From Vibrio sp. SCSIO 43137 (GTDB taxonomy: Bacteria; Pseudomonadota; Gammaproteobacteria; Enterobacterales; Vibrionaceae), in NCBI RefSeq assembly GCF_028201475.1, contig NZ_CP116383.1:186001-250000 (forward strand): a stretch of DNA of 64,000 nt, written 5' to 3'. Positions within the stretch are counted from its first letter, which is position 1; each line of letters opens with the position of its first letter. Below the pieces are notes generated by a model. That model saw only the letters and a program-made list of their open reading frames with translations, was not told where the DNA came from and searched no databases. Shown piece after piece: positions 32,289-36,530 of this stretch. The translations under genes were made by a program, and so were the position numbers.

Positions 32289-32834
32289 ATGTCATTCAGT
32301 GATCAAAACTTAATTTGGGTCGATCTTGAGATGACAGGGTTAGACCCTGAAGAACACAAGATCATTGAAATTGCTACGATTGTGACGGACAGTGAGCTGA
32401 ATATTCTTGCCGAAGGGCCGACTATTGCAATTCATCAGCCTGAGCAAGAGTTAGATAAAATGGATGAATGGTGCACAACCACTCATACAGGTAGTGGTTT
32501 GGTTAAGCGGGTTCGCGAAAGCAAAATCAGTGAACAACAAGCTATTGAGCAGACCATTAAGTTTCTGGAGCAATGGGTGCCTAAAGGCGCTTCTCCGATT
32601 TGCGGAAACAGTATTGGTCAGGATCGCCGTTTTCTGTATAAGCATATGCCTGAACTTGAAGAGTACTTTCACTATCGCTACATCGATGTCAGTACTCTTA
32701 AAGAACTGACTCGTCGCTGGAAGCCGGAAGTCCTGAAAGGGTTTAAGAAATCAGGTAGCCATTTGGCTCTTGATGATATCCGGGAGTCTATCGCTGAACT
32801 TCAGTATTACCGTGAAAATATCATTTCAATTTAG
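32289..32834 (+). CDS. orn: Oligoribonuclease
   Basis: 3'-5' exonuclease that degrades di- and short oligonucleotides, including pGpG from c-di-GMP turnover. DEDDh exonuclease: [18 protein letters not shown] (Exo I), [11 protein letters not shown] (Exo II) and [11 protein letters not shown] (Exo III). 181 aa. Immediately upstream of the tRNA cluster. Confidence 0.97.
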
Positions 32835-32920
32835 AGCGGGCAGCCTTGTCGTCCTGATGTAAATAGATTTTGATTCTTTTTTCATCAGGTGACAAAAAAA
32901 TGCTAATTTTTTGCAAGAAG

Positions 32921-32951
32921 GACTTGCATCACAAAAAAATGCTCTTATAAT
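32921..32951 (+). promoter_or_regulatory. tRNA cluster promoter
   Basis: Perfect -10 TATAAT at 32946-32951, followed by the GC-rich discriminator TCGCAGCCC typical of stable-RNA promoters. The best -35 is TTGCAA at 32921-32926 with 19-bp spacing. The first tRNA starts 35 bp past the -10. Confidence 0.7.
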
Positions 32952-32985
32952 TCGCAGCCCTAAACGACGAAAGACGTTTTAGATT

Positions 32986-33061
32986 GCGACACTAGCTCAG
33001 TTGGTAGAGCGCAACCTTGCCAAGGTTGAGGTCACGAGTTCGAACCTCGTGTGTCGCTCCA
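32986..33061 (+). tRNA. tRNA-Gly(GCC), copy 1
   Basis: 76 nt with encoded CCA. Acceptor GCGACAC / GTGTCGC, anticodon loop TTGCCAA giving GCC, T-arm GAGTTCGAACCTC. First gene of a Gly/fMet array. Confidence 0.98.
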
Positions 33062-33104
33062 GATTTTATAGTTCTCACGGTACTTAACGGTGACACAATT
33101 CGGA

Positions 33105-33181
<77 letters not shown>

Positions 33182-33198
33182 ATTTCAAGGTGTTGTGA

Positions 33199-33272
33199 TT
33201 CGCTAGCTCGTCGGGCTCAGCCATTCATAAAACCTAGCGAAGGTCATCAGTTCAAAACTAGCCTCGCAACCA
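33199..33272 (+). pseudogene. Degenerate fMet-like tRNA copy 1
   Basis: Shares TAGCTCGTCGGGCTCA and the 3' GCAACCA with tRNA-fMet, but has an insertion of about 18 nt in the anticodon loop and a replaced 5' half. The insertion creates an 8-bp perfect inverted repeat TTCGCTAG (33199-33206) / CTAGCGAA (33234-33241). It cannot form a normal cloverleaf. Confidence 0.75.
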
Positions 33273-33307
33273 AACTCAGATTGTTTGATTCAACATCAGA
33301 TGATTAT

Positions 33308-33383
33308 GCGACACTAGCTCAGTTGGTAGAGCGCAACCTTGCCAAGGTTGAGGTCACGAGTTCGAACCTCGTGTGTCGCTCCA
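33308..33383 (+). tRNA. tRNA-Gly(GCC), copy 2
   Basis: Identical to copy 1, 76 nt with encoded CCA; 322 bp downstream of it. Confidence 0.98.
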
Positions 33384-33443
33384 AATTTTATCTTATCCTA
33401 AGATAAACAGTTCTCACGGTACTTAACGGTGACACAATTCGGA

Positions 33444-33520
<77 letters not shown>

Positions 33521-33537
33521 ATTTTAAGGTGTTGTGA

Positions 33538-33610
33538 TTCGCTAGCTCGTCGGGCTCAGCCATTCATAAAACCTAGCGAAGGTCATCGTTTCAAACAGGC
33601 CCCGCAACCA
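33538..33610 (+). pseudogene. Degenerate fMet-like tRNA copy 2
   Basis: Same rearranged structure as copy 1 with the TTCGCTAG / CTAGCGAA hairpin preserved. It differs in the T-arm region (CATCGTTTCAAACAGGCC), so the copies have drifted slightly. Confidence 0.75.
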
Positions 33611-33645
33611 AATTCAGATTGTTTGATTCAATATCAGATGATCAT

Positions 33646-33721
33646 GCGACACTAGCTCAGTTGGTAGAGCGCAACCTTGCCAAGGTTGAGGTCACGAGTT
33701 CGAACCTCGTGTGTCGCTCCA
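33646..33721 (+). tRNA. tRNA-Gly(GCC), copy 3
   Basis: Identical to copies 1 and 2; exactly 338 bp after copy 2. Confidence 0.98.
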
Positions 33722-33780
33722 AATTTTATCTTTCCTAAGATAAACAGTTCTCACGGTACTTAACGGTGACACAACTCGGA

Positions 33781-33857
<77 letters not shown>

Positions 33858-33874
33858 ATTTTAAGGTGTTGTGA

Positions 33875-33948
33875 TTCGCTAGCTCGTCGGGCTCAGCCAT
33901 TCATAAAACCTAGCGAAGGTCATCGTTTCAAACAGGCCCCCGCAACCA
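33875..33948 (+). pseudogene. Degenerate fMet-like tRNA copy 3
   Basis: Third rearranged copy, almost the same as copy 2; the hairpin and the CCGCAACCA end are kept. Confidence 0.75.
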
Positions 33949-33983
33949 AATTCAAATTGTTTGATTCAACATCAGATGATTAT

Positions 33984-34059
33984 GCGACACTAGCTCAGTT
34001 GGTAGAGCGCAACCTTGCCAAGGTTGAGGTCACGAGTTCGAACCTCGTGTGTCGCTCCA
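33984..34059 (+). tRNA. tRNA-Gly(GCC), copy 4
   Basis: Identical to the other Gly copies; 338 bp after copy 3. It is not followed by an fMet gene. Confidence 0.98.
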
Positions 34060-34093
34060 AATTTTAATCATTTAGTTACTTTTAGATGATTAT

Positions 34094-34183
34094 GCGATAT
34101 CTGCTCAATAAATTGAGCGCAACCTTGCCAAGGTTGAGGTCACGCTTTTTGTTCAAGAGAAGGGAACCTCGTGTGTCGCTCCA
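34094..34183 (+). pseudogene. Degenerate tRNA-Gly copy
   Basis: Keeps the tRNA-Gly anticodon stem-loop (GCAACCTTGCCAAGGTTG) and 3' end (AACCTCGTGTGTCGCTCCA). The acceptor 5' strand is mutated (GCGATAT), the D-arm is changed, and about 14 nt are inserted in the T-arm region. Not expected to be a working tRNA. Confidence 0.85.
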
Positions 34184-34753
34184 TTTTCTTTTTCGTTAAT
34201 AAGATAATGGAAAAATTTCAGGCTGATATTAGCCTCCAAGATTACTTGATTAAGTAATGCCGCTCTTTTTAATGCTGTGAAGCATTATCCCCAAAATTTC
34301 AGAATAAATAGCCGCTAGTCAGGCTAGCTTTTCCACCGTAGCGCTATAGGCATTCCGGTGTTTCCAGCTGATCATAATTCATTTAACCAACAGACTTATC
34401 CACAAATTCTTATCTGTGGATAAAGTGGTGAATAAAAGAGTATTGCTACAAATTCCTTCTTCTTCCTAAAAGATCCTTTATTAGATCCATTGGTTATTAA
34501 ATCAGAAGTTATTTTCTTAATTCTATGATTTTAATGGGTATTTTGTGATTTTACTTACTGCTCACACAAAAAATGGAAGATCAAAAGCAGCTTGTTTATT
34601 GATCTTTGTCATTTGTTGTATTTGTGTTTAACTTTTTTCAAATTAAGGCTTTTATTAATTGGCTTGAAGTTTTTCCACATTTTTTATTTTGCGGAGAGTG
34701 TCAAATAAAAAGAAACTTTGAATGATAAAGTTACAGGCTAGTAATCCGTATGT
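34184..34753. other. 570-bp gene-free region with a DnaA-box cluster (datA-like)
   Basis: No gene is seen. Perfect DnaA boxes TTATCCACA lie at 34396-34404 (plus) and 34415-34423 (minus), 10 bp apart and inverted. TTTTCCACA at 34671-34679 fits the relaxed consensus. Near matches are at 34285-34293 (TTATCCCCA), 34329-34337 (TTTTCCACC) and 34623-34631 (minus, TTAAACACA). In E. coli the DnaA-titrating locus datA lies in the same place, between the glyVXY tRNA genes and queG. Confidence 0.65.
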
Positions 34754-35881
34754 TTATGCGTCTCTTGGCAGGCCCTTCTGCACTAAACGGATCAGGCGTT
34801 GAGTTTTATTGTTGCTAAAAGGAGTCTGCTTCTTTTGTTGCTCCAGAGCCCAGACAAGGTGTTCATCCAGTATATCGTTAACACCTAGCTTGTCTTCCAG
34901 AGCTTCAATTATTTTGTGAGAAAAAGGTGCGTTGCCCATTGTAATAGCTATATTTCTCAGCCACTGAATATGGCCGATTCTGCGGATGGCAGAGCCTTCT
35001 AGTTTTTTCAGGAACTCATCTTCAGTCCAACTGAATAAATCTATTAATTCTGTTGTGCTAAATACTTTTTTTCTATGAAAGTCTGTTTGTGTCGTCAGCT
35101 CAGAGTAACGGTTCCATGGACATACAAGCTGACAATCGTCGCAACCATATATTCTGTTTCCTATCGCTTTTCTGTATTCCGTAGGAATAACGCCATCAAA
35201 CTCAATTGTCAGGTAGGAGATACACTTTCTTGCATCGACAACGCCTTCTGAAACAATGGCGTTAGTCGGGCAGGAGGTGATGCAGGCGCTGCATTTTCCA
35301 CACTCATTTGCTGTCGGTTGATCCACCGGAAGCGGAATATCAACCAGTAGCTCGCCCAGAAAAAACCAGGAACCGGCATTTCTATTTATGATCAAAGAAT
35401 GTTTGCCGATCCAGCCAAGTCCGGCTTCCTGAGCCAGAGGTCTTTCAAGAATTGGAGCGGAATCGACAAACGGCCGGTAACCTAACTGACCACATTCTTG
35501 TTCGATCTTTTGCCCCAACTTTTTAAGCTGATTTCTTAGCAGCTTATGATAATCCCGGCCTAAGGCATACCGGCTGATGTAGGCTTGGTTTGTGTCACTT
35601 AGATTTGAGGAAAACTGAGCCTCCGGAGGAAGATAATCTAAGCGGACACTGATAACCCTCAGCGTTCCCGGTAGTAATTCTGCCGGCCTTGAACGCATTG
35701 TGCCGTGCCGCGCCATCCATTCCATCTCACCATGGAAGCCGTTATCAAGCCACTCCTGCAGCGCGGGTTCATATTCTGAAAGGTCGACATCACAAATCCC
35801 TACCTGCTGGAAACCAAGTTCTGTTCCCCAGAGTTTTATTTTTTCAGCAAGTTGTTGGTAGTTCATCATGGTTTGTTTCAT
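34754..35881 (-). CDS. queG: Epoxyqueuosine reductase
   Basis: Cobalamin-dependent last step of queuosine tRNA modification. Two [4Fe-4S] motifs, CGKCSACITSCPTNAI and CDDCQLVCPWN, follow a cobalamin-binding N-terminal domain (DSAPILERPLAQEAGLGWIGKHSLIIN). The C-terminus has HEAT-like helices (IRRIGHIQWLRNIAITMGNA). 375 aa. Divergent from tsaE. Confidence 0.95.
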   Translation of the reverse strand: MKQTMMNYQQLAEKIKLWGTELGFQQVGICDVDLSEYEPALQEWLDNGFHGEMEWMARHGTMRSRPAELLPGTLRVISVRLDYLPPEAQFSSNLSDTNQAYISRYALGRDYHKLLRNQLKKLGQKIEQECGQLGYRPFVDSAPILERPLAQEAGLGWIGKHSLIINRNAGSWFFLGELLVDIPLPVDQPTANECGKCSACITSCPTNAIVSEGVVDARKCISYLTIEFDGVIPTEYRKAIGNRIYGCDDCQLVCPWNRYSELTTQTDFHRKKVFSTTELIDLFSWTEDEFLKKLEGSAIRRIGHIQWLRNIAITMGNAPFSHKIIEALEDKLGVNDILDEHLVWALEQQKKQTPFSNNKTQRLIRLVQKGLPRDA

Positions 35882-36065: not shown

Positions 36066-36530
36066 ATGAAGACACAGCAAATTACTCTAAAAGACGAGCA
36101 GGAAACTATCGCTCTTGGTTCACGCATTGCGGCATTGTGCTCAAAGCAGACGACTATATATCTGCATGGTGATTTAGGCGCAGGTAAGACGACGTTCAGC
36201 AGAGGTTTTATCCGTGCACTAGGTCATAACGGAAACGTCAAAAGCCCGACTTACACATTGGTTGAACCGTATCAACTGGCTGACTGGCAAGTGTATCACT
36301 TTGATTTGTATCGTCTGGCTGATCCGGAAGAGCTGGAGTTTATGGGTATCAGAGATTATTTTACCGATGATGCTATTTGTCTGGTTGAATGGCCGGAGAA
36401 AGGGGAAGGTTTACTGCCAGAGTCTGACTTTGATATAGAGCTGAAATACGATAATGATCAGCGTATTGCCTGTATCACTGCCAATAATGACTACGGCTGT
36501 AATTTGCTGGAAAAAATGGAGTTATCTTGA
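36066..36530 (+). CDS. tsaE: tRNA threonylcarbamoyladenosine biosynthesis ATPase TsaE
   Basis: P-loop ATPase needed with TsaB, TsaC and TsaD for t6A37 in ANN-decoding tRNAs. Walker [27 protein letters not shown] and HFDLYRL are diagnostic. 154 aa. The stop overlaps the amiB TTG start. There is no nnr gene between queG and tsaE, unlike E. coli. Confidence 0.96.

Follow-up and report, generated by a model that had tools for sequence, protein, structure and literature searches.

The genome analysed here comprises two contigs (4.94 Mb), and the window is a 64,000-bp stretch of the first of them (C1, positions 186001–250000). The second contig, C2, has a gene for an RctB-type initiator (633.6 bits to PDB 5ubf), for which NCBIfam profiles gave no match, and carries at its other end a pair of genes that are presumably ParA/ParB-like; both fit Vibrionaceae. 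Within the window, orn (32289–32834, + strand; NF003765, 301.1 bits) is followed by an array of four tRNA-Gly(GCC) and three tRNA-Met(CAT) genes identified by ARAGORN (32986–34059, + strand), an intergenic region toward which this array is transcribed, and queG on the opposite strand (34754–35881, − strand; TIGR00276, 488.6 bits). Beyond queG lies tsaE (36066–36530), and the gap between these two genes contains no open reading frame of at least 80 amino acids. The order in Escherichia coli MG1655 is orn-glyV-glyX-glyY-(datA)-queG-nnr-tsaE, and an earlier sequence-only reading had proposed a datA counterpart at this place; the neighbours on which it relied, orn, tRNA-Gly genes and queG, do flank the region on both sides as in MG1655.

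The element studied here is close to the origin, taking dnaA as a proxy for oriC and all contigs as circular. It lies 220.6 kb from dnaA in this genome and 168–460 kb (median 294 kb), or 12–28% of the replichore, across 39 of 48 genomes (one with dnaA and queG on separate contigs and eight more were excluded); by the same measure, E. coli datA lies 510.6 kb from dnaA.

By eye, the stretch 32986–34190 resolves into repeat units of about 338 bp containing the Gly and Met tRNA genes; each Met gene appears to be followed by degenerate remnants of tRNAs, and a tRNA-Gly near 34092–34185 likewise looks degenerate. Between the array and the boxes described below is a hairpin, AATGCTGTGAAGCATT (34271–34286, + strand), present as a single copy in the window and with no T-run 3′ of it; it could possibly act as an attenuator. 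An RNA element at the locus was considered and rejected, as an Rfam search of 32900–35000 at E values up to 1 returned tRNAs only.

DnaA boxes between the tRNA array and queG

Two perfect TTATCCACA boxes face each other across a 10-bp gap, box A at 34396–34404 (+) and box B at 34415–34423 (−), exactly as the earlier reading had described. Each has a weaker predicted neighbour in its own orientation: TAACCAACA at 34384–34392 (+), 12 bp before box A, and box W, TTATTCACC, at 34427–34435 (−), 12 bp after box B, which mirrors the left weak box. Further toward queG are a weak reverse box T, TTAAACACA, at 34623–34631 (−), and box C, TTTTCCACA, at 34671–34679 (+), which has the same direction as box A and is the single relaxed-consensus match to TTWTNCACA already noted. 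Sites with one mismatch to TTWTNCACA between 34186 and 34753 lie at 34285 (+), 34329 (+), 34427 (−), 34623 (−) and 34634 (+); near matches are thus present as proposed, numbering five rather than three.

We compared these counts with doublet-preserving shuffles of 34186–34753. The two perfect boxes stand against a mean of 0.0048 and the three TTWTNCACA matches against 0.083, and in neither case did any of 5000 shuffles reach the observed number; the eight sites with at most one mismatch compare with 2.04, a count reached in 0 of 400 shuffles. TTWTNCACA shows no excess over the window as a whole (9 matches vs 6.73 expected), so the signal is local. The 4.94-Mb genome contains 41 copies of TTATCCACA, and two copies within 30 bp are found only here and at C1:1964025. 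The latter pair (C1:1964025–1964047; L169 2526–2548) is inverted with a 5-bp gap, as in the DARS core, and lies just after a permease-like open reading frame, with no recognisable third box.

Conservation of the boxes across Vibrionaceae

Non-conservation of the boxes in relatives had been named in advance as an observation that would count against the proposal. QueG matches were found in 192 Vibrionaceae genomes, from which 109 loci were examined and 108 rows counted; L131 (g2, from a 2.6-Mb genome), in which no box pair was recognisable, was excluded from the row counts, and a duplicate of the window (L023) is among the rows. The alignment comprises 107 rows, L076 being omitted from it alone for its 1451-bp gap. 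All but one of the 108 rows (107) have a facing pair of + and − boxes at +18 or +19, each box having at most one mismatch and the pair being sought from +9 to +40 relative to box A. Facing pairs at other offsets also occur, the commonest at +12 in 15 rows. Box A is an exact TTATCCACA in 103 rows and differs by one base in four more. Box T (TGTGNNTAR, +195 to +269) was found in 103/108 rows and box C (TT[TA]T[CT]CACA, +240 to +319, + strand) in 97/108, and of the 99 rows with both T and TTTTCCACA, 94 have them 48 bp apart and the remaining 5 have them 47 bp apart, where anything from 1 to 199 bp was allowed. The alignment as a whole displays conserved blocks at the sites with sequence drift in between, such that box spacing is kept though the spacer sequence drifts.

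We then scored every offset from box A for matches to TTATCCACA over 107 Vibrionaceae rows. Besides A, B and C, peaks appear at −12(+) (mean 5.93 of 9 matches, z = 7.4), at +31(−), which is box W (mean 5.88 of 9, z = 7.3), and at −48(−) from C; because B and C were used in choosing the anchor, the peaks at +19(−) and C are not independent, while those at −12, +31 and −48 are. Lesser peaks were seen at +1(−) (z = 4.2) and at −71(+) from C (z = 3.8).

Three loci deviate. L098 retains only a changed pair plus a C-like box, L131 is the locus lacking a recognisable pair, and L116 is the one row without the facing pair at +18/+19, with B, T and C all missing from their expected positions. The last of these (genome G011) represents a divergent genus and carries box A without B and a TAATCCACA at +162, which is the distance between boxes 2 and 3 in E. 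coli; its layout is possibly an intermediate. In genus g10, four of five loci (L120–L123) have an extra DnaA box, strong or close to consensus, at 178 bp from A.

A predicted IHF-type site between the box groups

The sequence-only reading had found no clear IHF site. We identified a predicted one, AATCATAGAATTA, at 34518–34530 (−), with one mismatch to WATCAANNNNTTR, which is likely the counterpart of the IHF-binding site (IBS) of datA; in the window it lies 122 bp from box A, with T at about 227 bp and C at 275 bp. Among the 99 of 108 rows with the strict box motif, the strict core YAANNNNTTG occurs between +105 and +170 in 67, compared with 8.5 ± 2.6 expected from first-order Markov resampling of each row (largest count 17 in 200 runs), and 65 of these sites sit at +120 to +129 from box A. 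The opposite orientation yields a strict core in 8/99 rows. The strict core is absent from 32/99 rows, the window among them. With a relaxed core, the site is found in 88/108 rows, 120–125 bp from box A in 86 of the 88; the distance from it to box T is 103–108 bp in 76 and 94 bp, about one helical turn shorter, in 7. The Vibrionaceae consensus of the site is TAANNNNTTGTTT, compared with TAANNNNTTGATW. A single IHF-type site between A and C is thus found family-wide, and weakly in this genome, where the predicted site has one mismatch; profile matches over cut-off for both ihfA and ihfB are present.

This regularity bears on the view that the element only titrates DnaA, serving as a high-affinity sink near the origin with no stimulation of ATP hydrolysis. 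Two perfect and several weak boxes in such a place would bind DnaA, and E. coli datA itself first looked like a sink (PMC3937223), but a plain sink has no need of the rigid T–C spacing seen in all 99 rows with both boxes, or of an IHF-type site at a constant position, and we consider titration alone unlikely.

Comparison with the queG region of other families

Outside Vibrionaceae we examined 89 loci from 21 families, covering no more than 1200 bp beyond queG on its downstream side, and less where a tRNA or contig end intervened. By design this search would miss a datA located elsewhere; L230 (f18, partial queG) was left out, and several families gave no queG. E. coli's own family was recognised by QueG identity (f19, 78–90%). 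A core of weak box, 3 bp and TTATCCACA lies downstream of queG in 21 of the 89 loci, and ACAGNNTTATNCACA is found in 18/18 f19, 2/2 f11 and 1/1 f5 loci and downstream of queG in none of the other 68. The sequence ACAGASTTATCCACA around box A is common to the window and these same f19 (18/18), f11 (2/2) and f5 (1/1) loci.

In the offset scan of 19 f19 rows, MG1655 included, peaks fall at −12(+) (mean 5.95 of 9, z = 4.9), 0, +161(+), +173(−) and −67(+), which we read from their positions as datA boxes 7, 2, 3, 4 and 1, respectively, the numbering being our own assignment; a lesser peak lies at −10(+) (z = 3.6). An IHF core was found by regular expression at +65/66 in 10 of the 19 rows, MG1655 among them, elsewhere in 2, and was missed in 7. 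The f11 and f5 loci (L155–L157) resemble E. coli's family in layout, with a second TTATCCACA at +161 to +165; a strict IHF core was sought in them and none was found. For E. coli, the available portions of the relevant papers report that datA boxes 7, 2 and 3 are essential and face the same direction, with one IBS between boxes 2 and 3 (PMC5742627), and that spacing is important for function (PMC4585315, PMC5742627), with the requirements for boxes 2, 3 and 7, direction, a single IBS and spacing also treated in PMC10950094 and PMC10380432. On sequence grounds, the weak box at 34384–34392 is likely the counterpart of datA box 7, box A would correspond to box 2, and box C would be the positional counterpart of box 3.

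The mirrored half of the Vibrio element recalls a different class of site. In E. coli DARS1 and DARS2, a + box faces a − box with another − box 12 bp on; here A faces B as box I faces box II, and W at +31 repeats the 12-bp spacing of boxes II and III. The cluster might therefore be DARS-like or a hybrid, with the inverted A/B/W boxes promoting ADP release from DnaA, perhaps in alternation with a datA mode. The facing gap, however, is 9–10 bp in 107/108 rows, whereas both E. coli DARS sites and the DARS2 homologue of this genome have 5 bp, a difference of about half a helical turn, and the element occupies the place of datA rather than that of DARS1 or DARS2. On the gap we rejected membership in the DARS class, and a DARS-like function seems quite improbable. 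The DARS2 homologue lies in the rppH–mutH gap (C1 about 2736679–2737024; L170 1180–1525), with the layout of the E. coli core: + box, 5 bp, − box, 3 bp, − box.

A role in transcription control appears marginally less probable again. Bound DnaA might block or attenuate read-through from the tRNA array or shield queG from antisense transcription: the tRNA genes point at the element in all 103 Vibrionaceae rows that have any in the stretch (5 rows have none), the hairpin between array and boxes keeps its core, ATGCTGNGAAGCAT, in 86/108 rows, and substitution of datA box 2 in E. coli is reported to increase read-through RNA (PMC10950094). A roadblock would nonetheless need one or two boxes, whereas the element keeps a fixed arrangement that spans about 285 bp and includes an IHF-type site. 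Chance clustering is refuted by the shuffles, none of 5000 reaching the box counts, and by retention of the pair in 107/108 rows, and we give it practically no weight.

Hda in Vibrionaceae

Hda is central to the main route of DnaA-ATP inactivation in E. coli. Searching with one row per genome, we found the Hda profile (TIGR03420, NCBIfam) over its cut-off in only 1 of 197 Vibrionaceae genomes (G004), compared with 238 of 295 genomes in a sample of the order; 48 genomes of that sample had no match, and the 20 of them listed were all Vibrionaceae. When E. coli Hda was used as the query against 29 genomes, 28 gave only a 27–31% match in a long frame fitting DnaA, whereas G004 had an additional 58% match adjoining yfgD, as in E. 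coli. From these searches, Hda looks ancestral and lost in most Vibrionaceae. With Hda under cut-off in 196 of 197 genomes, the element may carry more of the DnaA-ATP inactivation load in this family.

We looked for, and dropped, a clean anticorrelation between Hda and the element. The Hda-positive G004 keeps a diverged element, in which ACAGAGTTATACACA is accompanied by TGATCCACA in inverted orientation at +19 and by TTATTCACA at +280; the strict motif failed there, and neither box T nor an IHF core was found at the usual places. As the element is retained, there is no clean trade-off with Hda.

Discussion

Taken together, the data favour reading the region as an enlarged datA, equivalent in Vibrionaceae to the E. 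coli locus, that would act on DnaA-ATP; to this reading we assign a probability of about 0.7. Its layout consists of a weak-plus-strong tandem pair, a mirrored strong-plus-weak pair 10 bp away, an IHF-type site at about 122 bp, and T(−) and C(+) 48 bp apart. We regard the family-wide DnaA-box site as real, and it is very probably the datA counterpart, with a new architecture. The core, the position, the order and direction of the boxes and the proximity to the origin support the earlier proposal of a datA counterpart; the spacing is not that of E. coli, and the mirrored half is not E. coli-like. Several observations weigh against the datA reading: the spacing differs from that of E. coli, where spacing matters; the inverted A/B boxes, reminiscent of the DARS core, are not part of E. 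coli datA; the family IHF consensus differs and the strict core is missing in 32/99 rows; and L116, L098 and L131 deviate in their boxes.

We infer that DnaA and IHF bind the element and that ATP is hydrolysed there. The DnaA of this genome is 84% identical to that of E. coli, with 92 of 94 residues of domain IV identical and Lys178, Arg285 and Arg334 kept. By analogy with E. coli datA, each strong box would be the starting point for head-to-tail loading of ATP-DnaA onto the weak box beside it, and IHF would bend the middle and bring the T/C module against the A/B cluster. This contact would trigger ATP hydrolysis, yielding inactive ADP-DnaA shortly after replication of this ori-proximal site. 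Transcription reading through from the tRNA array may then dislodge IHF before the next initiation, as read-through from the tRNA genes at E. coli datA is reported to do (PMC10950094).

A broader proposal, which we hold tentatively and with well under even confidence, is that most Vibrionaceae have lost Hda and that, with RIDA missing, the enlarged, mirrored datA is their principal DnaA-ATP off-switch, its palindromic arrangement being a second working design for a site of DnaA-ATP hydrolysis. Our literature search returned no account of a datA on Vibrionaceae Chr1 or of a lack of Hda there; such a search confuses datA with “data”, and prior notice is possible. A 2018 review of the control of V. 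cholerae Chr1 covers DnaA, IHF, Dam/SeqA, DARS-like sites and ParA1, and in its accessible portion Hda and RIDA do not occur and datA appears only as a comparison for RctB titration (PMC6090056). In the excerpts available from other papers, Hda is tabulated for alpha-, beta- and gamma-proteobacteria with no exception given (PMC3290774), and V. cholerae is listed among DARS2 sequences in the legend of Figure 8 (PMC8682772).

The restraint of Chr1 initiation in Vibrionaceae is only partly known, and a conserved datA counterpart provides a mapped 300-bp target. If Hda is truly missing, Vibrionaceae would test whether a DNA site alone can carry the DnaA-ATP switch, and the natural difference in spacing between the two families would show the geometry needed for DDAH.

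Among known systems, crtS, through which Chr1 of V. cholerae enhances the replication of Chr2, is likewise a non-coding replication-control site on Chr1 of Vibrionaceae; it acts on RctB and Chr2 (PMC3937223), whereas the element here carries a cluster of near-consensus DnaA boxes. DARS1 and DARS2 share the facing-box core and occupy different loci, this genome having its own DARS2 homologue. E. coli datA is the nearest in kind. Both are ori-proximal intergenic sites downstream of co-directional tRNA genes, with orn, tRNA-Gly genes and queG as neighbours; both have tandem weak and strong boxes 3 bp apart in the same direction (by sequence, not affinity) and an IHF-type site between box 2 and a third box of that direction, the −12 box, A and C all being + here, with order and direction as in E. 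coli. In contrast, the distance from A to C is 275 bp compared with 162 bp between boxes 2 and 3, and that from A to the IHF-type site is 122 bp compared with 65 bp. The Vibrio element adds the mirrored strong and weak boxes, of which inverted box B was not seen in E. coli's family, and a further reverse box, T, located 48 bp before C; its IHF-type site is weaker in consensus, and the positions of E. coli boxes 1 and 4 are not kept. Because its spacing departs from the E. coli type, we file the element as a datA variant rather than as an E. coli-type datA.
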